The position numbers and the translations under genes are program-made. Shown here piece after piece: positions 26,222 to 63,069 of a DNA stretch of 64,000 bases. This stretch comes from Symbiodinium sp. CCMP2592 (lineage: Eukaryota > Sar > Dinophyceae > Suessiales > Symbiodiniaceae). The notes beneath the pieces are model-generated. The model had not been told where the DNA came from. It did no database searches and worked only from the letters and a program-made list of their open reading frames with translations. The stretch covers positions 1 to 64,000 of the forward strand of contig CAJNDT010005876.1 of NCBI GenBank assembly GCA_905221615.1, read 5' to 3'. Numbering within the stretch: position 1 is the first letter of the stretch; every line of letters begins with the position of its first letter.

Positions 26222-26646
26222 ATGGTAAGGCGAACCAAATTCGTCAGTGCAACCACAGTCGCAGCAGAACTTCAGCGCATTGATCCTGAGACCTGCAACT
26301 TGCTTGCTGAAGTAAGTGCTCGTAACGCAAGCAATGCATACCCTGCACTACTGGCTGCATTACTGGGAGGTTCATGGGCAGTTATAAGTAGGGCTATAAG
26401 TCCCCTAATGGGTTATAGTTATCGTTACACTACTTATAACCCCCTTACAATCACTCATGAACCTCCAAGTAGTGTCGCGGGTGAAGGATACCTTCAGAAA
26501 GTCGCACATCAGGAGATCAAGCGTGGTGCATGTGTTGTACCCTGCAAACAAGCACGCGGCGTGTTTGGATGCTTTTATCGAACGGATCAAATTTCTAGAG
26601 AGTCATTGCTTTGTCGCCTATGTGTGCTAGCCACGAGACAACAACT
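26222..26646 (+). CDS. unrecognised gene fragment, two exons around a family A element
   Basis: The first exon reads from about 26222 to 26369 and includes RIDPETCNLLAEVSARNASN. A family A element follows. Removing 26370-26469 (gttcatggg...cctccaag, 100 bases) joins to 26470 in phase 1, and the new frame continues for about 58 codons with a protein-like tail (CLDAFIERIKFLESHCF) to TAG at 26644. Without splicing a different frame also stays open through the element, so the choice rests on protein-likeness and on the same pattern at other family A copies. Function unknown. Confidence 0.4.
26361..26471. mobile_element. family A inverted-repeat element (introner-like)
   Basis: The ends are tactgggaggttcatgggca and catgaacctccaagta, inverted copies with a self-complementary GTTATAAG...CTTATAAC interior. 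TA at both ends fits a TA target duplication. A GT 7-8 bases inside the left end and an AG at the right end make a 100-base potential intron. Confidence 0.75.
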
Positions 26647-27238
26647 GGTGGGTAATGCGTGGCCGCGGCATTTCACAGTCAAAGGCTACGTTCAAAAGCA
26701 CACTGTAGACTTGCCATATCTTGTCAGAGAGGCTAATTTACCAACGAGAACTGGAGTCCATCTTCAGTGCCGTAATGGATGCTTCTGTCTTCATGCATGC
26801 TTCTGTCGCTACATAGAAACCGCGAGATCCTTGCGAGCCTTCGGGATCCTAGGCTACCATCCTGGATGGTTGGATTACCAAGCCACGGTTTAAGTGCGTA
26901 GGCTGCGAGCACCCTATTTATTGGATTTCTTTAGGCTTACGAACTAAGAAGCTGGGTGCCAGAGATCTCCCTGCCCAAGTGGCTGAAGAGGAGAGTTTTG
27001 GGTTCCTGCAGAAGTGTCTTTGTCAAGAGTGATCAGATGCATTCTAACATGAGCTCAACTTCAGATTTTGCTGTGCATCAGATTGATCAGCATTGCTTCG
27101 TTTGTGCACGGCCATTCTGGCTCAGTTCTTGTTTGTGCTGTTTTGCCGGAAATACTGTGCTGGCATTGCACATGCAGAAACCTGTCTTTGAGCATGAAAG
27201 AGCCGTTGTGCAAAATGATGCATGTTCGCTTATGTGCC

Positions 27239-30200
27239 ATGGAAGCTTGTCGTCGAGCATGCGCCGCCCGGGGGGCTTCCACAGGTGCTGCTGCAGGTAT
27301 CACCGGAGGACGGCTTGTGGTTGAAAGCCTTGTGGCTGCCGATGTCCGCAAAGTCTTCGGCATTCCAGCCACGCACCTGGCTTCCATCTATCGCGTGCTG
27401 GAGGATCGGAAAGACATCCAGCACGTAACTATGCGACACGAGCAAGCTTGCGGCTTTGCTGCAGACGGCCATGCCCGGGCAACAGGAGATCTGGCGGTGG
27501 CTATGGCGACGACGGGTGTGGGGTTCACCAATGTGGTCACTCCGATGGCCGTTGCCCTGGCGGACTCCGTTCCCATGCTCGTTATAACTACAGAGGTGCC
27601 TCGGTTTTGGGCTGAGCGGCCTGGACGCCAGTTTAGCCATTTCGTTCCACATGTCAGCAAGATTGCTGCGTCGGTTGCAAAAGAGTGCTTTGAAGTTGGG
27701 AGCGTGGATGAAATCGGCACGACCGTCTCCTCGGCAGCGTCATTGGCGAGATCTGGCCGTCCTGGTCCCGTCCACATCAACATCCCAGTTGATATTCTGA
27801 ACGCAGTCAGTGCAGGGAAAGACACTTGGGCTACAAGGAAGGAGGCCACATCGGAAGCGTCCTTGGACCAGATGGCGAAGGCCACATTGAAGAGCTTCGC
27901 CAGCGACCTTGCTTTGTGTGAGCGACCGCTTATCCTTGCTGGCGGTGGCTCAGTCCACGCATCTTCTCAGCTTCTTGAGTTTGCCATGGCTTTGGGTGCC
28001 CCAGTCATAACAACGGTCGCAGGTAAGGGATGCATTGATGAGCGCCATGGTTTAGCAGTGGGTGCTCGACTGCACCTGCCCGCAGCAAGAGACTATTTGT
28101 TAGATCATGCGGATGGCTTGATCTTCCTTGGCACTCAGATCTCGCCGACCGACTTCTGGCATTACACATACTCTGCTGATGCTGGGCTCTTGTTAAGGGA
28201 TGTAGTTTAAGGTGCCATAAATAAAGAAACCATATTGTTTACTATAGATCCCCGTTATGGTACCTTAAATTAAGTTCCATAGCAAGAACCCCCAAACGCT
28301 AAACCCTAAAGCCCTAAACCCTTAACCCCAAAACCCTTAAACCCTACACCCCAAAACCCTAAACTCCAAACCCCAAAACCCCAAAACCCTAAATCCGTAA
28401 AGCAAAAAAGCCTAAAACCCCAAACCCAGGATGTGCCCCTGAACCCTAAACCCCAAAACCCTAAAACCCCAAACCCCAAACTGCAAAATCCTAAACCTTG
28501 AAACCCATACCAGGCTCTACCTACTAGGTATTCCGACTGTAGCAAGGAGGAAAAGGGCCCTCAAAAAAAAAAGAAGCCCAGGATGTGCCCCTATAAATCC
28601 CCCAAAACAAGAAAACCTAAAACCCCAAACCCAGGACTTAAAAAAAAACCCAGGATGTGCCTCTGGGGCTCGAGCGTTTCGGCTCTAAAGCTTTGCACGT
28701 GGATCTGGACCAGGCAAGTCTGGATCAGGGCGGAGTTGGTGCTGCTGGCAGAGTCTCGATCTTTTGGGAACTAGGGGTTTAGGGTTTAGGTTTAGGCTTT
28801 AGGGATACTTTGGGAACTTTTGGGAAATAGGGGTTTAGGGTTTAGGGGTTTAGGGAGGCTTTGGGAAGCTCTTCAATTTCTTTGACGGTTCCTACAGAGG
28901 TATCTGTTCATAAGTACTGTTAAGGGCCCCAAAACTACAGCCTAGGAGTCGTGAAAGCCGATGTGGCCGCTGCCTGCAAGTTCTTGGAAGGGCAGCTGGA
29001 ACGTCAGAGAGAAAGCTGGAATGGACAGCCAAAGGAAGCAGCTGCCCAAGCCAAGCAGCTTAGCGACGACAGCAGAGCCATGACAAAGGCCTTGTCGAAA
29101 TCCACGACTTCTAGACTCTAGACTACGCCCCTAAACATCCCAAAACCCTCAACAACACCCTAACCCCGAAATCCCTCAACCCTAAACCCCTAAATCCCCC
29201 GAAAAGCCCTTTACTCCAAACCCCACAAAAGCCCTTTCGCAGGCTTTGTCCTTAGACTTCGTCCCAGGGACCCCAATGAGCCCCGGGCAGCTGATGTGTC
29301 GCACCCTGGAGCATCTCCGCTCCGACCTGCCTCTCAAGGTCCTTGTCATGAAGGGAGTTTTCGAAAATTATCGGGTGCCTTAGGGTTCCTTTAAAGGGTT
29401 ACTGTAAGGGTACTATAAGGGTTCCTTTACAAAGCTCTCTAAGGGTTTGGAGTTTCCGAAAAATCAGGGGTAGCTTGTTTTGGGGTCCTGATAATAAGGA
29501 TCCTAGTACTCAGCGTGCCATATTGGGCTCCCCTATCTTCGGAAACCCCCTGAGGAGAAAAATCTACAAAACTTAGAAAAACAGTAGCAACAACAGCAAT
29601 AGTAATTGCCGTGGTATTAGCACTACTCCAATTATGAAAGGCCCTTATATTCCAGCACCCAACTATAGATCCCTTATCGACCTCCTTTTCAAGAACACTC
29701 AGGTGCCTCTCTTCGCTGACATTTGCCGTCTTGGGTATGCAGCTCTGTCCCTCTATCCTGCCTATAGGCCTCGTTCTTTCCTCTACCCTGTTGGCACGAC
29801 CTGCTTGGGCTATGCACTTCCAGCGGCCATCGGCGGCGCCATAGCAGAACGGGGCTCGCCTGTGGCAGTGCTTGTCGGTGACGGTGGCTTGCAGTTCAAC
29901 ATTCAGGAACTGGCCGTGGCCGCCGAAGAGCGTTTGCCAATCTTGACAATCTTGTGGAATGATAGTGGCTACGGGGAGATACGCAGCGTTTCCGGGGAGT
30001 TTGGGACGAGTTGGGTTTCGCCCAACTTTGCGCAGATTTGTGCAGGCTACGGCATAACGCATGTTCTGGTAAATGATATCACATCTCTGGACGAGGCCTT
30101 CGAATCTTCGGCAGTTAAAGCGGTGCTGGAGGGAGCTGGAGGTCCTGTCATGCTGGAAGTGGCGTGCCCTCCGGAGGCCAAGGAAGCGAAAGTCGAAGGA

Positions 30201-31211
30201 CAGGTTTCTTCTCGCACGGTCGCGCCTAAATTCATTTTGGGAACCATGACGCTGGGTTGGGACAAGGCATCGTCTTTCGTGGACGAGGCTGTTGCGGCTG
30301 AAATGATCAAGCACTTTCTGGCAGAAGGACATCATGAGATTGACACTGCTCGCATGTATTCTGAAGGCCGCGCCGAGCAAATGCTTGCTGGTTGCGTTGC
30401 GCAGCTGCCTCATGATCTTCGACGCAAGGTGCTGTTGGCCACCAAGGCAAACCCAGCAGCTGAAGCTGGAGACTTTGCTATCATGGGTGGTTTTCAAGAT
30501 CCAATGCTATCGTCGCAGTTTACCCGCAGCCTGGATGCTCTCAGCACAGACAACGTGGATTTGTTTTACTTGCACTGGCCCGATAGCACAGCCTCCATGG
30601 AGGAGACCCTGCAGCAAGTACAGCGGGCCTACATGGAGGGGAAATTTACTCGCTTTGGTATTTCGAATTATTGGCCCTCGGAGGTAGCTCGAATCCATCA
30701 GCACATGAAGGACCGGAATTGGATACTGCCCACTGTTTACCAAGGCATGTACAATGCTCTGACGAGAAATGTCGAGAAGGAACTCTTCCCACTGCTGCGC
30801 GACTTGGGAATGAGCTTCTATGCGTTTAATCCCCTTGCAGGCGGCCTCCTTACAGGCAAGCATTCGCTGGAGAAGCCTGCTTCCAGTGGCAGATTCCACC
30901 AAAACGCCGACTATCAGAAGCGATACTGGAAGCAAGAGTATTTCGAGGCCATGAAAATGGTCACTTCGCAAACAGAGGCTGCTGGTATCCCCATGTCAGA
31001 GGCAGCACTTCGGTGGCTGGTTCACCATTCAATGCTGCGAGGTGAATGCGGTGATGGGCTGATAGTTGGCTGCTCTTCGTTAAGCCAACTGAAAGAAAAT
31101 CTTTCTGTCTGTGGATCCGAGCCTCTCCCTGTGAACGTCGCAAGAGCATGGGAAGATGCTTGGGAGTGTGTTAAGCCAGTCTGCCCGCCATTTTCTCCGC
31201 AGATGCGTTGA
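27239..31211 (+). CDS. ThDP-dependent enzyme fused to AKR7-type aldo-keto reductase
   Basis: Predicted exons are 27239 to about 28180-28201, about 28675-28738, 28925-29088, 29243-29356 and 29694-31211; phases match at the last three junctions (donors GT, GC and GT; acceptors AG). The product would be about 935 residues. The N-terminal part is a thiamine-diphosphate enzyme of the acetolactate synthase/oxoacid decarboxylase superfamily: the cofactor-activating Glu lies in MRHEQACGF, the central domain has LILAGGG and ALHVDLD, and the cofactor-binding site GDGGLQFN...WNDSGYGEIR lies at about 29876-29970. After residue about 610 comes a complete AKR7-like reductase (aflatoxin-aldehyde reductase type), with tetrad Asp and Tyr in IDTARMYSEG, Lys in LLATKAN, His in FYLHWPD, and GKFTRFGISNY, VYQGMYNA and FYAFNPLAGGLLTGK. 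The start is the ATG in gccatgg at 27239; an in-frame ATG lies upstream at 27068. Substrate unknown; a decarboxylase or carboligase making an aldehyde that the reductase then uses is an inference. The exon 1 donor is unresolved. Confidence 0.85.
28180..28291. mobile_element. family C inverted-repeat element at an exon end
   Basis: The left end gctgggctcttgttaaggga and right end ttaagttccatagcaagaac match the family C ends seen at 39.3, 46.4 and 49.8 kb. It begins exactly where the conserved reading frame of the ThDP domain stops, so it forms the start of the first intron of that gene. Confidence 0.65.
28292..28660. repeat. telomere-like CCCTAAA array inside intron 1
   Basis: Degenerate aaccctaaa/accccaaa units fill most of the first intron of the ThDP-AKR gene. 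The short sequence cccaggatgtgcc occurs three times (about 28425, 28577, 28649); the last is directly before exon 2. Confidence 0.85.
29446..29550. mobile_element. family E inverted-repeat element in intron 4
   Basis: The left end ttggagtttccgaaaaatca and right end tatcttcggaaaccccc are inverted copies. It lies within the 337-base intron 29357-29693. The intron itself also starts with a diverged family E left end (gggagttttcgaaaattatc from 29353). Confidence 0.7.
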
Positions 31212-32874
31212 GGGTCACGTGCCAAAGAGCCGACTTGATCCTATGTAGCTGCCAGCAAGATCCCGGTAGGGTTAGTCACTGGCTTGTCATGCGGTTTGGA
31301 ACTGCATGCATCGAAAGGGCTGCTGATTTGATTGGATCTTCTTTTCTTGCGCGTCTGTACCCTGCCCTGGGTTAACGGTTCGTGGGGACTTAGAATACAG
31401 GCAGCTTTGGGAGTGAGGAGGCAAGGAGGTGGCTGTAGTAGTAATCGAGACTACGCACGAACCTTGGAGTAGGGGGGTTTAGGGTTTAGAGATAGTTTAC
31501 AGATGCTTTGAGGCTCTGTTGGCCTCACACTTCCGGTAGCTCCACGAGCTATTCGTGCATCGTGCGATGGTCGCCCGCTACTTCGGAAATGCTACGCATG
31601 GCACTGCAAAGACACGTGCACACGAAGTCGGACGCAGGCTGCTGCCCCCATGATGGTTCACAAGTCAGTCCCGAGCAGTTAAATCGTCGTTATGAATGCA
31701 GAGAACGGCAACATGCAGTGGTAATGTGAACACTATTGAGTTACAAAGAGAACACTTGCAAAATCATTGATGCGACACGAGCAGGCTGGTTTTCCAATTG
31801 TATTACTACTGCTACCGCTACCGCTACTTCGTATTAGTCGTAGTAATGGTAGTAGTAGTAGTAGTAGTAGCAGTAGTAGTCGTCGTAGTAGTACCACCAC
31901 CTACAGCGCAACACGGCAACTGATGCCATGGCTCGGTGTAGGCAGGTCTTCACTCCGCCCCTTCTGTGCCTTTGCCTGGTACATTCTGCTTTCGGCGCAG
32001 CATCGAGGCAGATTGTGACGAAACGCACCTCAACGGGTGTTGTCGAGCAAGATGTGTGGTTTTCCCACTGTACGGTGATCGCGGCTGTTAGCACAAGCTT
32101 GCGCTTTGCCGATGCACGTACCGCTCGGCGTTGGGTTCTGTGACGCATCTGTCAGCAGGATCTGGGTCTCAAAAGGCGTGATCCAGATCTCCGTTCGGGT
32201 TTGGCTAGTCGGAGGAGGAGTGTCAGGGTCGGAACCGCCACCAAACAAGTCCCAAGCTCTCAACTCCTTTGTCCAAGAATCCCCGCCTTCATATTGCTGC
32301 CTCCTTCAAGGGAAATCATGCCACAATAGCCACTCCCTGTGCTGTACTTTATTATGTTGCTTTGTCTTAGATACAAGGACATGGAGATGTTTGAACACGC
32401 AGCATGCTGTGTGTTCTGCTGTGAACCGTGCCAAGCCCAATCGGGGCCCTGGAAATCCAAAAATGCGCCCTCACCACGGTGCCGTTGTTTTGTGCAGCTC
32501 GTGCATTTGGCCTGGCATGGTCGGTGCAAACGCGCCACAGTGCCATGCGAAGTTTTGGGTGGACTTCGCGGGGTGCCGCAAGAATTTTGCACTTAGAATG
32601 GTTCTGCAATTAGGGGTCTACTAGACTACGCCGAAACCTTAAGCCCTAAGGTTTCGAGAAGTGGTTTATTGGTTTCAGAGTTTACCTTCTGGGCAGTGAG
32701 GGGAGCTTAATCATTGCGTTCCATTGGCTAATCCCAATTACTCACCGTTACCATGCTGTTTGTGGAATGATTGCAATGGCAGGGACGAAGGCAGTTGCTT
32801 GGCTCCAGCAGCCGCGCTCCAAGAGCTTGTGGATCTCAGAAAGTACAGGACTGACTGTCCTCAATGGTTTCATG
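31212..32874. other. downstream of ThDP-AKR gene; no recognisable gene
   Basis: A (GTA)n microsatellite lies at about 31800-31890. Overlapping open frames at 32106-32624 on both strands look like shadows. A plus-strand segment at about 32785-32870 (AAALQELVDLRKYRTDCPQW) is protein-like and ends at the family I element, so it may be an exon. Confidence 0.35.
31800..31890. repeat. (GTA)n/(GCTACC)n microsatellite
   Basis: Triplet repeat similar in type to those at 3.0, 5.6 and 44.1 kb. Confidence 0.9.
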
Positions 32875-32977
32875 TGGGTGGTTGTCAAAATTATGGTCCC
32901 TTTTCGGGTACCCTAAATATTGGGTGCGGTGTTACAATTAGGATCCAAAAAGGGACCCTAATATTGACAACCACCCA
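32875..32977. mobile_element. family I inverted-repeat element
   Basis: The ends tgggtggttgtcaaaattat and attgacaaccaccca are inverted copies. A second copy lies at 40889-40993. A GT lies near the left end; this copy lacks an AG at the right end. Confidence 0.75.
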
Positions 32978-33140
32978 TGTGTTTGCGATTTATGGTTTGG
33001 GGTCCGCGGCTGTTGGGCATGAGATTCGGATTTTCGGTTTTTGTTGACTTGTAATTATTTCCAGATTCGAAAGGCTGCCGGATCTACCATCGAGGAATGT
33101 CATCAGCAGTTTTGGGGTTTCGGAGCCTTCGGCCGTCGTC

Positions 33141-33425
33141 CCTAAACCCTAAACCCTAAACCTTAGACCCTAAACCCTAAACCCTGAACCCTCAACCCTA
33201 AACCCTAAACCCTCACATTGCGGGTTGGTGCATCTTGCATTCGACTCGCCGCAGCTTTGTCCGGAATTCTCAACCTTAGGATTCGGGGTTCAAGCAGAGA
33301 TAGGGTTTAGGGTTTAGGGCTTAGGGTCTAGGGTTCAGGGCTTAGGGTTTAGGGTTTAGGGTTTAGGGCTTAGGGCTTAGGGATTAGGGATTAGGGTTTA
33401 GGGCTTAGGTTTTACGGTTTAGGGA
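33141..33425. repeat. inverted telomere-like repeat blocks
   Basis: CCCTAAA units (33141-33210) face TTTAGGG units (33300-33425) across about 90 bases, a large imperfect palindrome. Confidence 0.9.
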
Positions 33426-33500
33426 GATTGAAGGCATGAGGGCCGGGAAGCAGGAATTTCTCAAGTTTGTTCAACCCGCTGCCGGGGTGTTCTTTTTCAG

Positions 33501-33784
33501 GAATTCGCAAGCCGTGCTTCGAGACATCGCCAAGGTCTCCCAGGCGGGAGTCCACAATCACCTACTTGGAGGTTGATGGGTAGCTATAAGTGGGGTTATA
33601 AGTCCCTTTTTAGGGGTTAGAATTATAATATAGTTACCCACCGATAACTCCACTTACTTGTATAACTATACCCATGAACCTCTAAGCAGACCTCATGTGT
33701 CGGTCTTGGAGCCTTTTCCGCTCTCTCTACCGATCCTGCCGCCACGGCAGAGTCACTTGCCAGCGTCTTCTGGGCTCGGCTTAG
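33501..33784 (+). CDS. unrecognised exon pair around a family A element
   Basis: After a good acceptor (ttctttttcag at 33490-33500) the plus strand reads NSQAVLRDIAKVSQAGVHNH to 33571. Removing 33572-33686 (gttgatggg...ctctaag, 115 bases) joins in phase 1 to a frame with DLMCRSWSLFRSLYRSCRHG that stays open to TAG at 33782. The upstream exon is protein-like; the downstream one is Arg/Cys-rich and less certain. No family is recognised. Confidence 0.35.
33563..33687. mobile_element. family A inverted-repeat element
   Basis: The ends tacttggaggttgatgggta and acccatgaacctctaag are inverted copies. The interior has GTGGGGTTATAAG matched by CTCCACTTA. It carries the GT and AG used in the exon pair above. 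Confidence 0.75.
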
Positions 33785-34490
33785 GGTTAAGGGCTGAGGG
33801 TTTAGGGTTCCGGGATTCCCCGTTTTGCCATTCGTATCAAACTGGTTGCCATGTTCTGGGCGAGGCATTCTTTTGTCGACGCTGCGTCAGATGGATTCCC
33901 GAAACCCCGCATCTATTCGGCCATGCACAGTGTTAGTGGAGCGCGGGCAGACTTGAAACTGAACTCGAGTTCGTTTATCTCAGGCCCTCTGCTCTTTGTT
34001 TGCCCCAAGCAGTGGGCTCGGAAACCCTTCATTGCCCTGGCAATGCTTGCATTTGGCCTCCTTTACGCCTCTTCAGGCGACGCTGCAGCTGGAGAGGAAG
34101 ATGAAGCTGCATTATGGCGTCCAGGATCCATCCGATGAGGCACAGTGGCTTTTCGCCATACTCTTGTGCCTCTTGGTGGTGGTAAAGCATCCATGCCAAG
34201 CACTGGAGCCCGTGGACGTGCCTCCCAGTCTTTTGTAGTGGCGAGCGCAACCCTCGACTCTATGGACCATTCCCCCATCCCTACTACCCTAAACCCTAAA
34301 CCCTAAAACCCTACTACCCTAGACCCTAAACCCCATTCCTCCATTCCCTACTAATCAAAGGTAAGAACCCCAAACCCCGAAACCCCCAAACTCGGACCCC
34401 ATCGGGAGCCCCAGAGGAGCCCTGAAGCGAACCCTTAAAGGGACCTGAATCTTAGAGTTACCTTTATAGGAACCCTACTTGGAGGAACCC
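33785..34490. other. possible exon fragments, low confidence
   Basis: A plus-strand frame near 33840-33936 has a CHVLGEAFFCRRC motif, reminiscent of the Cys-rich FCRKCG-type tail seen in many dinoflagellate proteins. A hydrophobic frame (FIALAMLAFGLLYASS) lies at 34026-34075. Telomere-like units follow at 34285-34340. Confidence 0.25.
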
Positions 34491-34605
34491 TACTTGGAGG
34501 TTCATGGGTAGTTGTACGTGGGGTTTTAAGTCCCTTAATATGGGTGAAAAATTATAGTTACCCTAGTTATAACCCCACTTGTAACTACCCATGAACCTCC
34601 AAGTA
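34491..34605. mobile_element. family A inverted-repeat element
   Basis: The ends tacttggaggttcatgggta and ctacccatgaacctccaagt match as inverted copies. An extra tacttggagg lies just upstream at 34477, suggesting a partial end duplication. Confidence 0.8.
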
Positions 34606-34724
34606 AAGCAGCCCTTAAAGGGACTTGCCACGCTGCCTGGAGCTCCCAAGCCAGGTGCCGCTTTGCCAAGAGACGCCCTTGCCGCGCCCGGGAAATCTGC
34701 ACAGTATCAAAAGCCACAACTACT

Positions 34725-34866
34725 ACGTAGGACCGGGATTGGGTTTGGGAACTACGTGGGACCGGGCTTGGGTTTGGGAACTACGTGGGACCGGGCTTGG
34801 GTTCGGGAACTACGTAGGACCTGGCTTGGGTTTGGGAACTACGTAGGACCGGGCTTGGGTTTGGGA
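34725..34866. repeat. minisatellite of about 28-30 base units
   Basis: About five units of acgtgggaccgggcttgggt-like sequence. Open frames through it are Gly/Leu/Trp-rich artefacts. Confidence 0.9.
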
Positions 34867-35505
34867 ATGGTTGATGGTTTAGGATTGAGGAATCGGGGTT
34901 AATGGTTTAGGATGTAGGGTTGAGGGTTTCGACATGAACCATTTGTGAAATTTTCTAACTCGAGCTCCAAGCCGTAAAACCTTCAAGCCCAAAACACCAA
35001 AAACGTGGCTCAGATCCCTTATACATCTTATACCCTAAACCCTAAACCCTAAACCCTAAACCTAAATACTTATAATCTTAAAAAGAGCCAGGAGCGATCC
35101 GGGAAGCGCATCCCCGATTGTCTTTGCCGGCAGTGCAGTCCATCGTGGCTTCGGAGCAGCTTGGTTCATGTCTAGAGTCTAGAGTTTAGGGTTCAGGGTT
35201 TAGGGTTTAGGGTTTAGGGTTCAGGGTTCAGGGTTCAGGGTTTAGGGTTCAGGTTCTAGGGTTTAGGCTTGAGGGTTCTAAGGGTTGGAGTTCAGGGTTT
35301 GGCAGTTTAGCGTTTCGAGTTTTGGGCTTAGAGTTGATGTTTTGTATTGGAAGTCGGGTGAGGCCAGTGCCAAGGCTTAAGGCCTGGGACCCTGCCACTG
35401 ATTTGCACGGAGAGTCTGGTTTCTTACAACGGAGTTCCGTGATTTTTGACAGGGATTGTGGTGCCATTTGTAACCTAAACTTAGAAACCCTTAAAGCCTA
35501 GACCC
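34867..35505. other. telomere-like repeats, no gene seen
   Basis: CCCTAAA units at 35031-35062 and TTTAGGG/TTCAGGG units at 35183-35300. Nothing coding is supported. Confidence 0.5.
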
Positions 35506-35600
35506 TACCTGTAGCCGAAAAGACCTACCTTTTTGGGGTTCCTTATTGTGGTCTCTATATATAGTTCCTTAAAAAGGTAGGTCTTTTCGGCTACAGGTAA
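35506..35600. mobile_element. family F inverted-repeat element
   Basis: Near-perfect inverted ends of about 28 bases: tacctgtagccgaaaagacc and ggtcttttcggctacaggta. Inside the ends sit GTAGCC on the left and GGCTACAG on the right, a possible GT-AG intron. Confidence 0.85.
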
Positions 35601-35668
35601 GCCCTAAACCCTGTTCTGCGCCTTCCTGCTTCAGACCGCCAACCTTAAGCTTAAAACGTATACATACC

Positions 35669-35775
35669 CAGAGGGTCCATAGACACTGCCATCCCGAATT
35701 AGGTCCGAAAAGGCCCCTTCTTTTTTGGTCTTGGGGACCTAATTCCATAATTGTTATCTATATGGACCTTCTGGG
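35669..35775. mobile_element. family H inverted-repeat element
   Basis: Imperfect inverted ends (cagagggtccatag and tatatggaccttctg) around a variable core. One copy seen. Confidence 0.5.
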
Positions 35776-36287
35776 ATACCGTCGACCCGACCTCAGCTGC
35801 CGAGGTGGTACCACCCAGGATTGACTGCCAAAGGTGTGCCTTGGATTATTCTGGATGAGTTGTAAGCTGTCTTCGCAATGTCGGGTTTGAGTTCTGGAGC
35901 TTGTTGAATATCATAGTCATATAGGCACAACTGCTCCCCTGCCTCCCAGAAACCAGCTGCTTAGTGCAAGTGTCGATGTTGACTTTTGTTTTGGAGTTTC
36001 AGACCACGGGAAACCCTAGGAACCTAGTATAGAACCCTACATGAATGTGCCCTTAGTTTCATCATCAGGAAAGCCAGAACAAGGATATAATAAGGTACCC
36101 TTGTTGTGTTAGCTGCGTGTCCGAATTTCCAGTGGCAAGTTCTGGAGAATTGGGCTTCGGGGCTTGGGGTGCGTTTTTTCCAACCACGGCACGGTACTTG
36201 AAGTGACAAGCATCTAAACCTTAAACTCTAAACCCCTCAAGCCTAAACCCTCGACCCTAAAGGCTTAGACCCCAAGCCTTACTGGAG
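35776..36287. other. no recognisable gene
   Basis: Short open frames only. Telomere-like units at 36211-36275 directly precede the exon starting near 36288. Confidence 0.4.
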
Positions 36288-36554
36288 GCTCCGGACAGCC
36301 AGAAGCAGTGGCAAAGTAGATCGTCAAGCGTCGTCATTTCAAGCCCGAGATGCTAAGATCCGTCATGCTTTCTGCCAGGACCCCGCCGCCTCTAGGGACC
36401 ATGAACCCTACTTGAAGGGTCGGGGGACTTAGTAACTGGTTATTTTAGGGACTTATAAGTACCATAACCCCAGTTAGGGTCCCTTTCAGGGTACTTATAA
36501 GTTACTACCTACTTACTAAGTCCCCCGACCCTCCAAGTACACCCTCAACTGGGA
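36288..36554 (+). CDS. unrecognised gene: exon, family B intron, 17-base exon
   Basis: After ctggag the plus strand reads as a basic protein segment (FQARDAKIRHAFCQDPAASR) to 36418 in phase 1. A family B element follows; removing 36419-36537 (119 bases, gtcggggg...cctccaag) continues the frame for 17 bases (36538-36554). That piece ends gga immediately before a family E element whose GT at 36555 is in phase 0, as at the ThDP-AKR intron 4 donor. The next exon is not identified. Confidence 0.4.
36409..36539. mobile_element. family B inverted-repeat element
   Basis: The ends tacttgaagggtcgggggac and gtcccccgaccctccaagta are inverted copies. Interior pairs include acttataagtacc with gtacttataagt. 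Family B shares the outer TACTTGGAGG with family A. Confidence 0.85.
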
Positions 36555-36651
36555 GTTTCCGAAAATAGGGGAGCCTGATATAGTACCCTAAATAGTAGGA
36601 TCCCTATTATAAGGACCCCAAAATAAGGTACCCCTTGTTTTCGGAAACTCT
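36551..36651. mobile_element. family E inverted-repeat element
   Basis: The ends gggagtttccgaaaataggg and ccttgttttcggaaactc are inverted copies, with inner aggatccctattataaggac symmetry. Confidence 0.8.
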
Positions 36652-36802
36652 CAACTCCTCAATCTCCAAAGCCTAAACCCACCGAAAATCGACAATCGAA
36701 AGCCCGAACCTTGCTGCGCACGTAGAGCCCCCTAAACCCTAAACCCCTAAACTCCTAAACTCCTAACCCCGCAACCCCAACACAGAACTCCTAAACCCCA
36801 AA

Positions 36803-36893
36803 CTTACCTTTGGTTAGTAGGGAATGGAAGAATGGTAGTAATAGTAGGTATAATTGTACCCCAGTCCTCCATTCCCTACTAACCAAAGGTAAG
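36803..36893. mobile_element. family G inverted-repeat element
   Basis: The inverted ends cttacctttggttagtaggg and ccctactaaccaaaggtaag match perfectly over 20 bases. GTTAGTAGGG at the left and CCCTACTAACCAAAG at the right give GT and AG boundaries. A related copy lies at 48549-48640, and a half copy near 34330-34370. Confidence 0.85.
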
Positions 36894-37059
36894 TAAACCC
36901 CTACATAAACCCTGGTACCTTATAGATCCCTTTAAAGGAACTCTTCTAGAACCCTTATAGATCCCTTTACAGGAACTCTTCTACAACCCTTATAGATCCC
37001 TTTAGAGGAACTCTTCTACAACCCTTATAGATCCCTTTAGAGGAACCCTCTAAACCCCA

Positions 37060-37490
37060 AGCCTTGGAGGTGTACACCCTACACCCTAAGCCGAGAACCC
37101 TAAACCCTAAGACCTAAACCCCAAACCCCTAAGCCCAAAACCCGTAAACCCAAAACCCCTAAACCCCTAAACCCCTGAAACCCTAAATCCCTAAACCCTT
37201 ATAAACTCTAAACCCTCCAAACCCCAAGCCACAAGGTCTGGTGTGTCGACAGTTGCTCCTCGGCCTTTTGCACCCTCCCGGAGGGAGGGCCGAAGCCCGC
37301 TTTAAGGTTTAGGGCCTTTCAGGGTTCTTTTTAGGGTTTAAGGTTTAGGGTTCCTTTTAGGGGTTTAGGGTTTAAGGTTTAGGGCCTTTTAGGGTTCCTT
37401 TTAGGGTTTGGGGGTTAGGGTTCTTTTTAGGGGTTTAGGGTTTAAGGTTTAGGGTCTTTAGGGTTTAGGGTATTATCCCAATACCCTGTG
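37060..37490. repeat. telomere-like repeats in both orientations
   Basis: CCCTAAA units (37075-37215) are followed by GGGTTTAGGG/GGGTTCCTTTTAGG units (37300-37470). Upstream at about 36910-37050 a roughly 40-base unit (ccttatagatccctttagag) is repeated four times. Confidence 0.85.
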
Positions 37491-37619
37491 TTCATGGACT
37501 TTTATATAGGGGTGCTTTGGAGTTTCAACCGCACTGATTTACTTCGGCGCCCCATAACCCTAGTATTTAGGATTTTGGGTCTCTACTAGGGTCCTTTACA
37601 GCCTAAGCCACAAAACTCA

Positions 37620-38264
37620 GATACCTCGAGAGCATTTGGTTTCTGGTGTCCGAGGCTCATGATGCCTTTAAGGCTTTGCGGAAGATTCAGTTACGCTACT
37701 TACTTGGAGGGTCTTTAGGTGACTTAGTAAGTAGGTGGTAAGTAGACTTATAAGTACCCTAAGAATGGACCCTAATTGGGGTTATCGTACTTACAAATCC
37801 CTAAGATAATCAGTTACCAAGTCCCCCGACCCTCCAAGTAGCCTTACAAGTTACATTAGTGTCTCAGAAGATGCAACGGGCACTCTCCGTAATCTCATGC
37901 TGAGCAGGCACGAACCCTCAACGCCAAGTCCTCAACATGGCAATCCTGCAGCAGCGGCCCGAAGCCCCGGAAATCCGGAGAACACCACGCCAAAGCTAAC
38001 AGCCATGTTAACATCCCGCAACCCCCAAACAATACACCCTGAACTTGAACCCAGAAAATGCGCATCCACAATTAACCTCAATTGCTTTCAACCGCAGGTG
38101 AGCTCCCTCTGGCGCAGCGCTTCAACGCACACTTTCCGGCCATCCAGCGGGAAGTCCAGCGTTTCTGGGACCATCCAGACCTGGAGGCCGTGCAGGTTTC
38201 AGTTTTGGGCGTCGAAATGCAGTGTTGGAAGGAAGCTGGGTTCCAGCCGCAGCGCAACTTGTGA
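37620..38264 (+). CDS. unrecognised three-exon gene with family B intron
   Basis: Exon 1 (after actcag at about 37619, to 37710) reads YLESIWFLVSEAHDAFKALR and continues. Intron 37711-37838 (128 bases) is a family B element with GT-AG ends and phase 2. Exon 2 (37839-37903) reads SYISVSEDATGTLRNLML. The second intron, 37904-38097, is GC-AG (ctgAgcaggc...accgcag). Exon 3 (38098-38264) reads ELPLAQRFNAHFP and AIQREVQRFWDHPDLEAVQV and ends in TGA. All phases agree. The result looks like the C-terminal part of a soluble helical protein that I cannot assign. Upstream exons are not identified. Confidence 0.6.
37701..37840. mobile_element. family B inverted-repeat element acting as intron
   Basis: The ends tacttggagggtcttt and gtcccccgaccctccaagta are inverted copies with an acttataagtacc interior. 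It interrupts a continuous reading frame. Confidence 0.85.
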
Positions 38265-39234
38265 AGACTCTAGTGTTGTAACATTGTTGCTGCTTGTTTG
38301 ACGACGGCGATGACTACAGCCACAACCACCATTGCGATTATCTACGACGACTAACTATTGCATACCAGTACTATGTTGTCATTGCCACTACTACGACGAA
38401 GCCGCCGACGATGCTGCACACATACGTACGTCCGTAGGTAGGTATGTGATGCTGAATATGCATGTGAATAAGAATATGCACAAATCTGTATGTACACATC
38501 TATAACTATATCTCTGTCTGTATCTATATCTGTATCTATATCTACATCTATATATCTTATCTTTCTGAAACAAGAGTCCTCGAGCAAGCGAGGCTATTTT
38601 CTGGCTATTCTCATGTTTCGCGACGTAAACCTCCTCGGTAGGTAGGGTCCTTTTTTCTGGATCCCGGGTTTGGGGCTTGGAGTTTGGGGCTGGACAGAGC
38701 AGCTGCAAAAAGAGTGGCTATTCGAAACCGATCGTTTCAATCATAATCACGACATGTAGGTTACGATGATGATGGAGGGGATAATGACGACGAGGATGAT
38801 GCTCAGTGCTTTAAGTTTGTGCGACCTCGAGGAGCATCTGAAGGGTGTGGGTACGCACACGACGCGCTTCTTGGCAGAAGATCCGTGCGCACATAATCCG
38901 GCGCAGGCATGCTTGCATCTGCAAGCAGAAGACGGTGCTACAGCCCTTGATGCCCAGTACCGTCCCTTGTCTTTCCCGACAAGCATAAGTGCATCAGTTC
39001 CCGTAGAGCCATGGCAGTGCGAAGAGAGTCTCTGTCGATATCCGGAGCTTCCGTTTTTTTCGTAGTCGTTTGCTATGGATCCATGGGTGTAAAGCAATGA
39101 ACTTTGCCCAGCTCGCCTTCCACGCACTTAGATCACAAGGGAGCAGGTCGTGACCTCTTCTCATTCGATGGGCAGACTTCCCACTTCCAGCCTAAACTCC
39201 AGACCCTAGACCCTCTTACACCGCAAAACCTTGA
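38265..39234. other. no recognisable gene; TATA/TCTATA microsatellite
   Basis: A tcTATATcTG-type microsatellite lies at about 38440-38562. Overlapping frames on both strands at 38747-39127 are open but unrecognised. Confidence 0.4.
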
Positions 39235-39465
39235 ACCGTGTGTCGCGCTTCTAGGCTTCGATCGCCTCATCGCCGGGAACGGAACTTGGGTGGACGTGAC
39301 TGGGTTCTTGTTAAGCATCTTCGTTTAAGTTGATTTAAGTTTGCAGTAACCGGGATGGCCATTATTGTGGTATCTCGGACACAGTTCCTAAACGAGAAGC
39401 CAGGTGAGGCTCTGGCGTGGTCGTGCCTTTAACAAGAAGCTCTGCGAGCGACACTTCAGGGTAGT
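39235..39465 (+). CDS. unrecognised gene fragment with 90-base family C intron
   Basis: The upstream exon reads LLGFDRLIAGNGTWVDVTG and ends tt at 39309 in phase 2. Removing 39310-39399 (gttaagc...gagaag) joins to a frame that reads VRLWRGRAFNKKLCERHF and reaches a GT donor at about 39463. Both sides are protein-like and the join keeps frame. The exon limits at the outer ends are estimates. Family unknown. Confidence 0.5.
39300..39406. mobile_element. family C element, diverged
   Basis: The left end ctgggttcttgttaag and right end cctaaacgagaagccagg match family C ends; the interior is diverged. Confidence 0.65.
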
Positions 39466-39490
39466 TTGCAGTGGCCCGGTCCGGTCTAGC

Positions 39491-39617
39491 AGCATGCTTT
39501 AGGTACTGCCCCCATACAGTAAGAGTCTATAATAGGGCTTCTATTAAGGTCCTAATATAGCCTTATTATGAATACTATTCAACTATTACTGGGTGGGGGC
39601 CGTACCCAAAGCATGCT
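39491..39617. mobile_element. family J inverted-repeat element
   Basis: The ends agcatgctttaggtactgcc and ggccgtacccaaagcatgct are inverted copies. GT and AG lie at the ends, but the frame upstream carries TAG at the boundary, so use as an intron is not supported here. Confidence 0.75.
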
Positions 39618-39860
39618 TTATGTTTTCAATTGCCTGCAAATTTCATGGTATCGAGGGATAGTAGGGTCAGCGCCAACAATGAGATTGACAAGTCATGTCT
39701 ACTATGGGAACACTACTCGTCGCCTGCCGCCGATCGAGTCGGTTCATCCTCGTCATCATCCTTCCCAAGGCTGCTCCCAGGTTTATCCTCCTTGCTCCTT
39801 CCACCGTAAACTCTCCACCCTACACCCCAAACCCCAAACTCTGAAACCCTAAGCTCGTGA

Positions 39861-39968
39861 CTTAATATGGGGGCCTTGATAACTACCTTTACTATTTTGG
39901 GGGCTCCTTATTAAAATTCTAGTATAACGGGCACTAGAACTCTATTCTAAATATTAAGGCCCCTACAG
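39861..39968. mobile_element. family K inverted-repeat element
   Basis: cttaatatgggggcctt is matched by atattaaggcccctacag. Similar ends (tatgggggcc, tattaaggccc) occur at about 48341-48432 and 52715-52780, so about three copies. Confidence 0.6.
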
Positions 39969-40888
39969 TAAACCCTACACCCAAAACCCTAAAACCCATT
40001 TCTGAGTTTGGGGTTTAGGGTTTAGGGTGTAGGGTGCAGAGCTTACGGTGGAAGAATCAAGCCTAAACCCTAAACCCAAAATCCTAAAACCCATTTCTGA
40101 GTGGGGAGGCCTTGTGGAGGCATCGCCTGAGATCTGGACGAACCCCTGGAGCCACGTCCTCTTAAGCGTGCTGCTGGGTTGCGGTTAAGGAAGTCATTAG
40201 TTTGAGTCACCAAGGGTTCTATAAAGGTTGCTTTAAGGGATCTGAAAGAGTTCTAGGTTTAGGGTTATTTCAGGTTACGACAATTTGAATATTGAGAAAA
40301 CAAGGTTTCTCTATGATATTAACTTAGTTTAAGATGCCGTAGTGGGGATATAGAGGAAAACGAGGTTTCCGTGTTGTTATACTAATTTAGTTTAAGTTTC
40401 GTAATTTAAGTTTCTTAATTTAAGCTTCTTAATTTAAGTTTCTTAATTCAAGTTTCTTAATTTAAGTTTCTTAACAGCTTCTTCAGGCTGGAGCCGGACA
40501 GCTGGGTGCCCTTTCATCAGGGTCACAGCAACGGTCAGCTGACGTACCATGTTCCGGTGTCGGAGATGCACCTCAAGAAGCTTCCCTAAGCCCGACTGAG
40601 GCCCCTTTAGTAACTATAAGGGGTTCCTTTAGGGTTCCTTTAAATGGATCTATAGGGATTCTATAAGGGTATAGGGTTTAGGGTTTAGAGTACTCTCACT
40701 CCAAGGGTAAAAGGAAGGACCCTTAATAAGGACCCTTATTAAGGACCCCTACGTATATACCCTTAATATAGCTCTTATATACCCATTATATGGTCCATTA
40801 TAGGGTAGAGGTCCCCATGAGGGGTCCCTCCTTTTCCCCTTTGATTCACTAAGCCCGACTCAGGCCCTTTTAGAACCCCGGCTAGACC
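39969..40888. other. telomere-like repeats and repeat debris
   Basis: No gene is seen. Telomere-like units at 39968-40090 and 40255-40270, and a degenerate family C region at about 40290-40475. An imperfect palindrome of about 160 bases spans 40695-40850 (ccaagggtaaaaggaaggac facing gtccctccttttcccctttg). Confidence 0.45.
40393..40475. repeat. six tandem copies of a 14-base unit
   Basis: The unit aagtttcttaattt is repeated about six times. It resembles the family C end (aagttccttaa), so it may have arisen by amplification of an element end. Confidence 0.85.
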
Positions 40889-40993
40889 CCTGGGTAGTTG
40901 TCAAAATTATGGCCCTTTTTTGGGGTACCCTAAATATTAGGTGCCGTATTAGAATGAGGACCCAAAAAGGGACCGTAATTTTGACAACCAGCC
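40889..40993. mobile_element. family I inverted-repeat element
   Basis: The ends gggtagttgtcaaaattatg and taattttgacaaccag are inverted copies, with gtagttgtc at the left and gacaaccag at the right giving GT-AG. Confidence 0.8.
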
Positions 40994-41087
40994 CCCTTGT
41001 CACCCCTGAAAGTCACCCTTTAACGGAACCCGATTCTAAAAAGCCTTGCTCCAGCTGGCGAGGTAACTTTGCCCTCGAATTCCGCAG

Positions 41088-41236
41088 CCGAGCTGGCAGT
41101 GGTTCCTCGGGGTGGTGCTCTCCCGGAGGATGACCACGACAGGCCCCTATCAAGAAGCTCCTTTCGAGCATTTTTTCAGCAAGAAACTCCGAGCTCAGCA
41201 AACCCCCAGACTCCAGACCTCTTTCTGCAAGCCACG
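41088..41236 (+). CDS. unrecognised exon ending at a family D element
   Basis: After aattccgcag the plus strand reads ELAVVPRGGALPEDDHDRPL and RSSFRAFFQQETP, and stays open to acg at 41236. It meets a family D element there in phase 0, with GTTGATG as candidate donor. The next exon is not found because telomere-like repeats follow. Confidence 0.4.
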
Positions 41237-41333
41237 GTTGATGATATAAATCCTGCATTACCCATAATAAGGAATATACCATAATTCCCATAGTTTAGGG
41301 TCCTTAAGGTAATGCAGGGTTTATATCATCAAC
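41237..41333. mobile_element. family D inverted-repeat element
   Basis: The ends gttgatgatataaatcctgc and gcagggtttatatcatcaac are inverted copies, with tgcattaccc and ggtaatgca pairing inside. Confidence 0.85.
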
Positions 41334-42347
41334 CCTAAACCCAACAACCCTATAGATGCCTTAAAGGAACCCCTTAAAGCCCATATAGATCCCTTTAAAG
41401 GAACCATCATCCACAGCATGTCCAGGATTCAATCTCATCCAGAAGAGCAGACCGCCACTCGGAGACGATTTAGATGACTTTGAAATGTTTAGGATGTAGT
41501 TGAAGGCTGGACTGTATGACCCGGTTTAGGGTTTTGGGGTTTAGGGTTGAGGGTTTGCCGGTAGTTGTACTAGGGTCGGGGCGATTGGAATGAATACTAG
41601 GATTGCCAGCACGAGAGTCAGCAGTAGTGCTAGAGTTTCCAGACGTGACCAGTGTTGCTAGCTGGCAAGTCTTTGATTTCGCATGGAATCGTACGTGATG
41701 TCCTTAATCCAGGAGCTGCGCGATCAGAAGCGTCAGCTTTGTGTGCACAGCTTGGTTGCTACGTACTCTTAACTCGTCCATCATGATGACGAGACTGCCT
41801 TTTTCGAAAACGATTAGTTTCTCACTCCATTTGGACACGTTGCAGTTGAACATCATCCCGACGATAATCGTCGCTTCCTCTATCCACGTGATTGCACTCG
41901 CGGCCATCGCATCCTTTCCATCACTGTTATCATTGCCCATGGTGGCCATCGCCAGCACCATGATTATTGTTGCTGCTGCCAGGATCCGCCAGTGTCGACA
42001 TCGTCTTTCTCAGAGTAGCTATCAGTAGTATTTTTGTGAGTTTCATCTAGACTAGCAATGTCCCGATCAGCGCTAGCCCTGTTCCGAGGATGGTTATCTT
42101 CGTAATTCGTCAACATAAGAAGATGTAGGTCGAAGTCCATGTGTAGGACAACTTGTGTGTTATAAGTGTGCTTTGGTGTTACTCGGACTGTTGTTTATCG
42201 CCTCCTCCAGTGATTGTTCAGCATGCTACTCATACCAGGGTGATGACTGCTAGCGCCTAGCAATTTCTACTAGCTGGCGCAATTGCTATTTGCAATTCGT
42301 ACTGCAATCCTTGTTATGGTCAGTATCAGGTTTCTTCGAATGACTTT
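41334..42347. other. no recognisable gene
   Basis: Telomere-like units at 41525-41555. Opposed open frames at 41704-42028 carry no known motif. Confidence 0.4.
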
Positions 42348-46904: not shown

Positions 46905-47045
46905 AGGGTTTAGGGGGTTTCGAGGGTTTAGGGGGTGTAGGGGTTTAGGGTTTAGAGTTTAGGGGGCTTCGGGGTTTAGGGCTTAAAGTTTAGGGTTTAG
47001 GAGGTTTAGGGGTTCAGGGGTTTAGGGTTTAGGGGGTTTAAGGGT
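46905..47045. repeat. TTTAGGG-type repeat cluster
   Basis: Degenerate gggtttagggg units, directly after the donor at 46898. Confidence 0.85.
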
Positions 47046-48640: not shown

Positions 48641-49207
48641 GCACATTTGGGGGATTTTTTGGCAAGAGTTTGGGGGTTACCGAAATTCGAGGGCTTGGTC
48701 CCTCAGCTCCGAATCCTGCAAACCCAGATGCCTGAACTCCGAAACTCTGCTCTCACCAAACGTCTGCTTGGAGGTTCATGGGTAGGAAAAACTGGAGTTA
48801 ACAGTTCCCTAATATGGGTTATAACTATAGCTACCCTACTTTTTTAATCAATTTGTAACTGCCCACGAACTTACGAGGGGTTTGGAATCTCCGAGTTTTC
48901 AAGAACCCAAGGATGCTTTTGCCAAACCACCAAGGCCCCCGTAAGCTAAAGTCCAATAAACCACAAACCTTATACTCCCGATCCTTGAAACTCCAAACCT
49001 TACTTGGAGGTGCATGGGTAGTTATACGTGGGGTTATAAGTAGGGTAACTATACTTATAACCCATATTAGGGGACTTATAGCCCTACTGATAGCTACCCA
49101 TGAACCTCCAAGTCGGGTGCTTCTGTCTCTCTCAGAGGTCACGGGCGCGTGGCAGTGCGCCGGCGCGTGGCCACGCAGGTAGTCGGAGCCGGGTCGTTGC
49201 TGCGTGA
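48641..49207 (+). CDS. unrecognised gene with two consecutive family A introns
   Basis: Exon 1 (48641-48773, after the AG of a family G element) reads GDFLARVWGLPKFEGL and QLRILQTQMPELRNSALTKR. Intron 48774-48877 (104 bases) is family A. Exon 2 (48878-49009) reads RVFKNPRMLLPNHQGPRKLK. Intron 49010-49112 (103 bases) is another family A copy, and exon 3 (49113-49207) is Arg/Gly-rich and ends in TGA. Both donors follow the same ctt-gga-g triplets in phase 1 and frame is kept through both joins. Exon 3 is the least certain. No family is recognised. Confidence 0.5.
48764..48878. mobile_element. family A inverted-repeat element, diverged
   Basis: The left end tgcttggaggttcatgggta and right end gcccacgaacttacgag pair imperfectly; the interior ggttataactatagctacc matches other copies. 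Confidence 0.7.
49001..49113. mobile_element. family A inverted-repeat element
   Basis: The ends tacttggaggtgcatgggta and ctacccatgaacctccaagt pair closely, with a symmetrical gttataagtagg core. Confidence 0.85.
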
Positions 49208-49607: not shown

Positions 49608-49789
49608 ATGTGGCTTGCATTGCAACACACCGTGCCAGTGCTTCCGCTTGTCAGGCTTCTGGAGCGAGTCGATGCGTGCCTTGGGCCGGATCTGGATCCG
49701 AGGGGCCCATCCAACATCGTGTGGAGATTGGGAACGCCTCGGGCTTCTGACGCCTTGATGTGGGATGCATCGAGAGCAGCTGGGTGCCT
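49608..49789 (+). CDS. unrecognised exon ending at a family C element
   Basis: The frame reads VPVLPLVRLLERVDACLG, then NIVWRLGTPRASDALMWDAS, and reaches a family C left end (ctgggtgcctgttaagg) in phase 2, the same phase as the other three family C copies. The downstream partner was not resolved because telomere-like repeats follow; a candidate coding piece starts at about 49896. A second frame at 49490-49620 (MLVPCFWQWDKWDVLWGRP) is also protein-like, so a frame change or small intron probably lies near 49620. Confidence 0.4.
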
Positions 49790-49875
49790 GTTAAGGAGTT
49801 TAGTTTTAAGTTGCCATGATACGAAAACAACATGATTGACTACAGATCCCGATTATGGTAGCTTAAGCTCCCAAC
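49781..49875. mobile_element. family C inverted-repeat element
   Basis: The left end tgggtgcctgttaaggagtt and right end attatggtagcttaagctcc pair imperfectly and match family C. Confidence 0.7.
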
Positions 49876-50265
49876 CCTAAACCCTAAACCCCCCAGGCAG
49901 ATGCATTGACTCGGATGGCAGAATCCAATGCCGTGTAGCTTGCCAGCACAGCCTGGGCCTCCGGCAACCTGCGTAGGATCCTTGGTTATAGTTGGGTAGG
50001 GTTTAGGGGTTTAGGGTTTAGGGTAGCATTTTACATTTTTATAGGTACTCAAACCCAAAGAAGGAATAAAAGTGTAAATTTTTGATCCCATCCCAACCAT
50101 GAACTAGGATCGATGGCGCCCTCTGGGGGATGACTTTCCGGTAAGGCCAGCAGATAGCAGCTGAGATGCATGCAGAGGACACATAAGTTGCAATAATGGG
50201 GACCTGCAGCAGTTGACAGTGTTTCCTTGTTGCGCTAACTGACCCTAAATTCTTAAAGCACTCAG

Positions 50266-60299: not shown

Positions 60300-60583
60300 A
60301 TGGAAATCTGCTAACTCACAAGACATACTTGGAGGTTCATGGGTAGTTACTCGTGGGCTTACACTTCCTCTAATGTGGGGAATATTTATAGTTACCATGC
60401 CTATAAATCCACTGAGAACTGCCCATGAACCTCCAAGTAGCCATCCAAAAAAGCACTCCCCGAAAGCCAACTCAGGATTTCAAAGACGTGCCTGGCAGTT
60501 CTCTCGGAGCTTACGTCACAGGCATCCCCCAGCACGCCGCCCTTTGCGATCGAGTTCGAGATGTGTGTAGGAGATATAGTTAG
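60300..60583 (+). CDS. unrecognised terminal exons with family A intron
   Basis: The small exon 60300-60334 reads WKSANSQDILG. Removing 60335-60437 (103 bases, gttcatggg...cctccaag) continues as QKSTPRKPTQDFKDVPGSSL then GIPQHAALCDRVRDVCRRYS and ends in TAG at 60581. The joined frame is clearly protein-like and neither side is open for long in the alternative frames. This looks like the C-terminus of an unassigned protein. Confidence 0.55.
60326..60439. mobile_element. family A inverted-repeat element acting as intron
   Basis: The ends tacttggaggttcatgggta and ctgcccatgaacctccaagt pair; TA at both ends. Confidence 0.85.
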
Positions 60584-62869: not shown

Positions 62870-62945
62870 CTGGAGGACTGCCCCTACGGAGATGCCCATC
62901 GCATCCAGCTCGCAGCTCGATTCAAAAGCTGTGGAGGGGGGCGGT
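62870..62945 (+). CDS. short coding-like exon before a family N element
   Basis: The frame EDCPYGDAHRIQLAARFKSC stays open from about 62870 to TAG near 62946. A GT donor at 62945 would splice before that stop. The CPYGDAH segment is loosely like a CCCH zinc-finger piece, but too short to assign. Confidence 0.3.
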
Positions 62946-62955
62946 AGCTGGCAGG

Positions 62956-63069
62956 TACCCGGAGGCTCCAATATCCCTTGGTTGAGGAATGTGCCTTATT
63001 TCTATAGTAGGATCCTCAGTATGATGTAAAGTATATTGCTTAATTAAGGGATATTGGAGTCTCCGGGTA
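62956..63069. mobile_element. family N inverted-repeat element
   Basis: The ends gtacccggaggctccaatat and atattggagtctccgggta pair closely. GT sits at the left end and TAG at the right end. Confidence 0.85.

Follow-up and report, generated by a model that had tools for sequence, protein, structure and literature searches.

Short inverted-repeat elements of several families are scattered, within genes and between them, through a stretch of 64,000 nucleotides of Symbiodinium sp. CCMP2592 (contig CAJNDT010005876.1, positions 1 to 64,000; hereafter, the window). On the evidence of sequence and homology, one of these families, family C, appears to be an introner, i.e., a transposon that becomes an intron, and to have made the introns at 39.3 and 46.4 kb, among others. 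We consider it highly probable (roughly 0.9) that C is a non-autonomous DNA transposon that creates introns by inserting into exons at four-base targets starting with G, and that families A, B, D to I, and K are only similar to miniature inverted-repeat transposable elements (MITEs). If so, a simple test, in which the target duplication is compared with the splice border, separates the elements that make introns from similar mobile elements that share those introns within one genome.

Gene models built from orthologous proteins served as an independent yardstick for intron ends: 23 introns were fixed by homology in two genes of the window, four in gene 1 and 19 in gene 2, and only borders with a G(A/C/T) start and an AG end were considered. 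Gene 1 (27215..31211, + strand), recognized from Pfam matches and from its ortholog P0001 of Symbiodinium sp. CCMP2456, encodes a fusion of a thiamine pyrophosphate (TPP) enzyme and an aldo-keto reductase. Alignment to P0001 places its five exons at 27215-28177, 28654-28750, 28946-29088, 29243-29338, and 29703-31211; it has four introns relative to P0001, and the spliced product of 935 residues is colinear with that protein (933 residues). Gene 2 (31928..47417, + strand) was detected by a homology search with peptides from near the elements, and encodes an aspartyl/asparaginyl beta-hydroxylase in about 21 exons, as judged from the ortholog P0121, its dinoflagellate relatives, and PF05118. P0121 and the relatives match about 20 of these exons, and the joined protein scores 70.6 bits against PF05118 (profile positions 2-157 of 157). 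The 19 introns of gene 2 are counted without H17 (junction between 42740 and 46367), and the borders of H1, H8, H12, and H16 represent the best, but not a unique, match to P0121.

The preliminary description had named dinoflagellates among the protists in which introners occur, and the DNA is indeed that of a dinoflagellate. The genome contains 429 exact copies (217 + 212; reversed control, 0) of the dinoflagellate spliced-leader sequence, and the last-exon frame of gene 1 has its best match, at 87% identity, in a Symbiodinium sp. CCMP2456 protein; because of these two observations, we regard the genome as that of a Symbiodinium-like dinoflagellate.

We catalogued 32 elements in the window, with their ends set by hand; 11 of them lie outside the introns of the two genes. 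The family letters A, B, and C match those of the preliminary description by position, and the other letters may differ between the two. Family C elements occupy four introns, all on the + strand and with borders fixed by homology: T1 (28178..28653, GA-AG, element at 28182-28291), H11 (39296..39403, GT-AG, element at 39300-39403), H13 (40170..40486, GC-AG, diverged element at 40174-40486), and H18 (46418..46846, GA-AG, element at 46422-46846). In each of them the element starts exactly four bases past the start of the intron, and the four bases concerned (GATG, GTGA, GCTG, and GAGC, respectively) also open the downstream exon. In H11, H13, and H18 the element ends exactly where the intron ends, so that its AG is the 3' splice site; H11 consists entirely of the target copy and the element. 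In H18 a D element (46574-46811, ends set by hand) is nested within C, and a B element (46649-46780) within D. The introns that the preliminary description had read from C elements at 39.3 and 46.4 kb are thus confirmed by homology, although in the latter case the borders it gave (46432-46839) must be moved outward to 46418-46846.

In the introns of the two genes, all four C elements stand at an intron end, as opposed to none of the 17 elements of other families. The H13 element was identified as C only once the ends of the intron had been fixed; if it is left out, the comparison becomes 3/3 versus 0/17, which by hand calculation has a chance of 1 in 1140. When all 23 introns were scored for C-like ends, the left ends exceeded the 99th percentile of random 40-mers (20) only in T1 (35), H11 (44), H13 (25), and H18 (49), and right ends above the 99th percentile were found in H11 (27), H13 (32), and H18 (44). 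In other words, C copies reach the ends of four of the 23 introns, and both ends in three. They do so in unrelated genes, namely, the two genes of the window and a proteasome beta-2 gene, with further coding-flanked copies elsewhere (see below). All four C introns contain stop codons in all three frames, which, together with the colinearity of the proteins, suggests that they are spliced from the mRNA.

The sequence of events would be as follows. C would land in an exon at a site whose four bases start with G, and the target would be duplicated. The left copy of the duplication would then become the 5' splice site (GT, GC, or GA, all of which are in use in this genome), and the AG at the end of the element the 3' splice site, so that splicing would take out one target copy together with the element and restore the exon exactly. 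With its nearly palindromic sequence, C could function in either orientation; its transposase would be encoded elsewhere. The preliminary description had placed the 5' splice site at a GT inside the element, but the homology-fixed borders put it at the first two bases of the target duplication (GA, GT, or GC). The 23 introns start with GC in 11 cases, GA in seven, and GT in five, and all end with AG; since 18 of them start with GC or GA, a search based on GT is bound to miss most. The start of the intron and the downstream exon share at least four bases in six of the 23 introns, versus nine of 506 mismatched pairs (Fisher p 1.3e-5). The six are T1, H11, H13, and H18, together with T2 (GAGTC) and H10 (GCTTC).

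It should be mentioned that direct repeats occur at or near the borders of four introns that have no C element (28751-28945, 29089-29242, 38187-38831, and 38866-39254), the repeats being GAGTC, GCCTTGTC/GCTTTGTC, GACCTGGAGG/GACCTCGAGG, and GCTTC, respectively; these are possibly relics of other introners. In T1 the sequence downstream of the C element, up to the 3' splice site, is another repeat sequence. The motif CCCAGGATGTGCC, comprising the 3' splice site and the start of the exon, appears there three times (28425-28437, 28577-28589, and 28649-28661), and the ortholog fits only the last copy. The triplet looks like a multiplied 3' splice site.

To what extent does family C behave in the same way in the rest of the genome? 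The genome searched comprises 1.098 Gb in 5383 contigs. Family C is about 111 bp long and MITE-like, with terminal inverted repeats (TIRs) CTGGGTTCTTGTTAAGG...CCTTAACAAGAACCCAG, which are given by the construction of the search, and with a 4-bp target duplication: the length of the duplication is exactly four in 21 of 31 copies, and an exact four-base repeat is present in 30 of 59 pairs of the combined set. Family A has 6146 exact end sequences in the genome, B has 7722, C has 616, and D has 8170; the reversed controls have none. From the listed matches, places were picked by hand in contig order, mostly with one exact end, most of the places with both ends exact being passed over; this gave 26 usable copies of C from 40 loci, 46 of A from 60 loci, and 17 of B from 20 loci. 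Ten of the 40 C loci were dropped for want of an end pair, and the others that were lost were excluded by mismatch or flank limits. Scoring of the flanks used a codon model whose training set was the two genes of the window. When one target copy and the element were removed, coding-like DNA continued in frame on both sides in nine of the 26 C copies; the corresponding figure for A was one of 46 with removal of TA (Fisher p 2.8e-4). On the coding strand, the junction starts with G in eight of the 10 coding-flanked cases, versus 11 of the 42 others (Fisher p 0.003).

The clearest case outside the window is locus L093, where a proteasome beta-2 gene contains an intron of 101 bases (GAAA and a C element ending in CCCAG, followed by a second GAAA). 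When the flanks are joined, the resulting peptide can be aligned with solved beta-2 chains on both sides of the junction (residues 9-73, with the junction near residue 36; best E 1.9e-17), the part past the junction bears the Pfam C-terminal domain, and the element, if read through, introduces stop codons in every frame. At L091 the joined peptide matches TMEM144 almost entirely on one side of the junction, and at L096 there is a weak match to a nucleoporin repeat, below the cut-off and in a frame other than the one counted. The joined C peptides of L098, L111, L116, L127, L128, and L095 have no Pfam match.

A number of observations weigh against the view that C makes introns by inserting into exons, and they are collected here. 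The 3' splice site of T1 differs from the right end of its C element, and the right-end score of this intron (17) is below the 99th percentile, similar to those of T4 (18) and H5 (16). Complementarity between the two ends of an intron is prominent only in H11 and H18. Direct repeats were consulted when choosing among candidate borders, so that the count of six in 23 may be somewhat favoured. P0001 and P0121 are themselves predicted proteins, and residues 51-96 of P0121 (46 residues) are absent from the model of gene 2; residues 76-91 match 33094-33141, within the modelled intron H2, a stretch that we left out because the relatives P0130 and P0140 are without it. The coding score was trained on two genes only, and C controls with shifted frames gave 4 and 4 of 52 junction-strands, as compared with 10 in frame; therefore, the frame signal is present but not clean. 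An exact four-base repeat starting with G on the coding strand is found in only four of the nine coding-flanked copies (L093, L098, L111, and L116). The repeat of L128 begins with T, those of the other coding-flanked copies are inexact, and L096 was counted on both strands. An earlier score that treated the flanks apart gave 2/64 for C, 2/16 for B (both strands of L026), 0/106 for A, 0/12 for D, and 0/32 for F, with 2.8% for random junctions, and a stricter flank score returned no coding-flanked copy of A, B, or C. Lastly, near-identical C copies (32 in 29 loci) have coding flanks in just one of 64 junction-strands. Their duplications are mostly AT-rich and, together with the scarcity of coding flanks, this marks C as a general mobile element; among its insertions into exons, those that persist would be mainly the ones whose target starts with G.

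We now turn to the other families. A and B are about 107-136 bp long in the window, with long inverted repeats, a common tip CTTGGAGG, and mostly TA on both sides. Within gene 2, A elements lie at 33565..33686 in intron H3 (33544-34076), with 21 bases separating it from the 5' splice site, at 34493..34603 in H4 (34140-34654), with TA on both sides, and at 43189..43297 in H17; B elements lie at 36411..36537 in H7 (35836-37235), 575 and 698 bases from the ends, and at 37703..37838 in H8 (37255-38097), 448 and 259 bases from the ends. Further A copies are found upstream of gene 1 (26363..26469), downstream of gene 2 (48767..49112, two copies at 48767-48877 and 49003-49112), and, with TA on both sides, at 60328..60437 in neither gene. 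All 17 elements of other families that lie within introns of these genes, two of them in H17, are 20 to 3477 bases away from the intron start, with 35 bases or more between them and the intron end: 0/6 for A and B together, and 0/11 for D, E, F, G, H, I, and K, reach an intron end.

TA flanks both sides in 39 of 59 copies of A in one set and in 23 of 46 in the sampled set, and in 13 of 17 copies of B. Since other identical pairs (CA, TG, AA, and CT) also occur at the flanks, a duplication of two bases is indicated for both families. In this respect, and in being short with long TIRs and having thousands of exact ends in the genome, A and B resemble MITEs that duplicate TA, presumably those of the Tc1/mariner type. 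A TA duplication cannot supply a 5' splice site, and for this reason A and B cannot give seamless introns; the removal of A from GT to AG would leave a scar of nine bases, and 0/46 sampled copies support it. In our reading, the sequences and positions of families A, B, D to I, and K are those of MITE-like elements whose insertions fell in introns or between genes. Copies without a boundary match, which the preliminary description had itself named as evidence to the contrary, are precisely what A and B present, with 0/6 at intron ends and coding flanks in at most 1/46 sampled copies of A and 0/17 of B.

It is conceivable, although unlikely, that some of these families are introners in other genes by another mode of splicing, e.g., by the addition of codons. 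One A copy, at locus L024 (1503-1612, reverse strand), lies in a coding-like open frame, which remains open when the element is removed, and might sit in an exon, and L086 passes the flank test weakly; furthermore, among the families other than A, B, and C, the genome samples covered only D, E, and F, and these incidentally. Against this possibility, neither the L024 frame nor the L086 frame has a Pfam match, and coding flanks are not in excess for A, B, D, E, or F, the incidental samples of the last three giving 0/7, 0/6, and 0/25, respectively.

We regard as highly improbable the original proposal that about ten unrelated families, each with a GT close to its left end and a right-end AG, are all introners. 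The description on which it was based is partly correct: short near-palindromic families are present where they were reported, and GT and AG do occur near their ends. Most copies have both in six of the 12 groups that were given labels, namely, A, B, C, D, G, and H. GT is found within the first 12 bases of 28 of the 32 elements, as compared with a fraction of 0.47 for slid copies of the same intervals; AG, between the last two bases and four bases past the right end, in 26 of 32 (slid copies, 0.31); and both in 23 of 32 (slid copies, 0.14). Copies belonging to one family cannot be counted as independent cases, and an inverted repeat beginning with CT necessarily ends with AG. In opposition to this excess stand the distance of all 17 non-C elements from the intron ends, the GT start of just five of the 23 introns, and the absence of in-frame coding flanks in the sampled copies of A (0/46 for GT to AG), B (0/17), D (0/7), E (0/6), and F (0/25).

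Frame continuity, the other argument for that proposal, is not above chance for A: removal of GT to AG leaves 57 of its 120 junction-strands open, removal of the element and TA 52 of 120, and removal of the element alone 48 of 120, versus 2237 of 6000 open random junctions. We therefore rejected it as a test for A and B, because it does not rise above chance. The elements at 33.6, 36.4, and 37.7 kb, which had been read as introns, lie inside larger introns and away from their ends, the predicted intron 37711-37838 being contained in 37255-38097. Similarly, the predicted join at 60335-60437 falls in neither gene, and no joined frame above the length threshold was found at 60.3 kb, where homologs of the flanks were not searched for. 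A GT and an AG near the ends of an element, combined with an open frame, should be treated with caution as weak evidence.

The A copy at 26.4 kb was considered as an insertion into an exon on account of its protein-like joined frame, and was rejected; it was not among the segments scoring above 8, and the frames flanking it have no homolog and no Pfam match. The frames flanking the A copies at 48.8 and 49.0 kb have no homolog, and the one frame tested has no Pfam match. A candidate fifth C copy of the window, read from the sequence (49780..49896, + strand), has GCAG on both sides and flanks without homology support. The homolog search covered the frames beside the elements at 26.4, 48.8, 49.0, and 49.8 kb and a frame at 50.3 kb; none of the 7996 candidates scored was a homolog at E 0.1. 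The peptides from 26.4, 49.8, and 50.3 kb were also included in a search, outside of which those of 48.8 and 49.0 kb remained, that gave 25 matches, all bearing PF05118.

Finally, C might be merely a MITE that lands in introns, its four intron-end positions being coincidental. In favour of this, the targets of its best-preserved copies are for the most part AT-rich and free of coding flanks. Against it, three introns have the duplication, the end of the element, and the two exon borders in exact register, and a fourth has this at its left border; together with the proteasome gene and the nine coding-flanked copies among 26, this leaves the idea very little credence.

The intron-making mechanism that we propose for C is already published for S. 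microadriaticum, and the present results support that mechanism of intron gain in the Symbiodiniaceae. The introners of S. microadriaticum described by Gozashti et al. 2022 (PMC9860276) have a 4-bp duplication and TIRs, carry the 3' splice site, and obtain the 5' splice site from the duplication. Introner family 1 of that species agrees with C in the length of the duplication, the TIRs, and the origin of both splice sites; its example spans 115 positions, as compared with 108 bp for H11. C is possibly the published family itself. The same paper reports that introners are enriched in genes in 161 of 175 genomes. Recently active introners are reported in four of the five dinoflagellates studied, with 15 large families in Polarella (PMC11453091, citing Roy et al. 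2023). Polarella glacialis is thus likewise a dinoflagellate in which many introns come from several element families, but its 15 families have at least 100 introns each, whereas one family is supported in this window. The introner elements of Amoebophrya (PMC7789003) also have inverted repeats and short direct repeats at the intron borders; in that case there are many non-canonical sites and the repeats of 3-5 nt vary in position, whereas here the introns are G(A/C/T)-AG and the four-base repeat lies exactly at the splice sites. Shah et al. (PMC11114475) found introner elements in 3-5% of the genes of Symbiodiniaceae groups. Searching titles and abstract openings, we found no paper on the particular families of this window.

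A more general reading can be offered only tentatively, and we think it somewhat less likely to be true than false. A 4-bp target duplication and an inverted repeat starting with CT would make an introner of any DNA transposon wherever its target starts with G, because the 5' splice site here needs little beyond a G followed by A, C, or T. The status of introner would then be a by-product of the length of the duplication and the tip of the TIR, and not an adaptation. If this is true, C (4 bp, CT...AG) qualifies, whereas A and B, which also have CT...AG but duplicate TA, are excluded; the introns so made would later be enlarged by the nesting of other MITEs, as at 46418-46846. In other words, relaxed 5' splice sites and 4-bp duplications may suffice to turn a MITE into an intron-maker.

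Some additional features were noted in gene 2 and elsewhere in the window. A genome search for an intron-free copy of the hydroxylase gave, as its sole match outside the window, a 30% identical paralog on contig C150, with an open frame of 348 residues (G000:C150:290553-291068). Inside the large hydroxylase intron H17, the stretch 43727-45277 (+ strand) is GC-rich and coding-like, and is perhaps a nested gene or a retrocopy; two frames tested in it (44435-44749 and 44804-45277) have no Pfam match. Two long open frames at 56622-59412 are rich in the motif CAGACAG and score as coding-like in part, with no Pfam match, and a large complex tandem array with several periods, including 61, 104, and 338 bp, occupies 55243-56496. 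At 51494-52270 (- strand), a 66-bp tandem repeat with 9.5 copies and 96% matches underlies an open frame of FNIP repeats. What looks like a segmental duplication consists of two very similar tandem arrays, at 11325-12023 and 14588-15293, about 3.27 kb apart. Telomere-like CCCTAAA/TTTAGGG arrays are interspersed in introns and intergenic DNA at many places between 28.3 and 63.5 kb.

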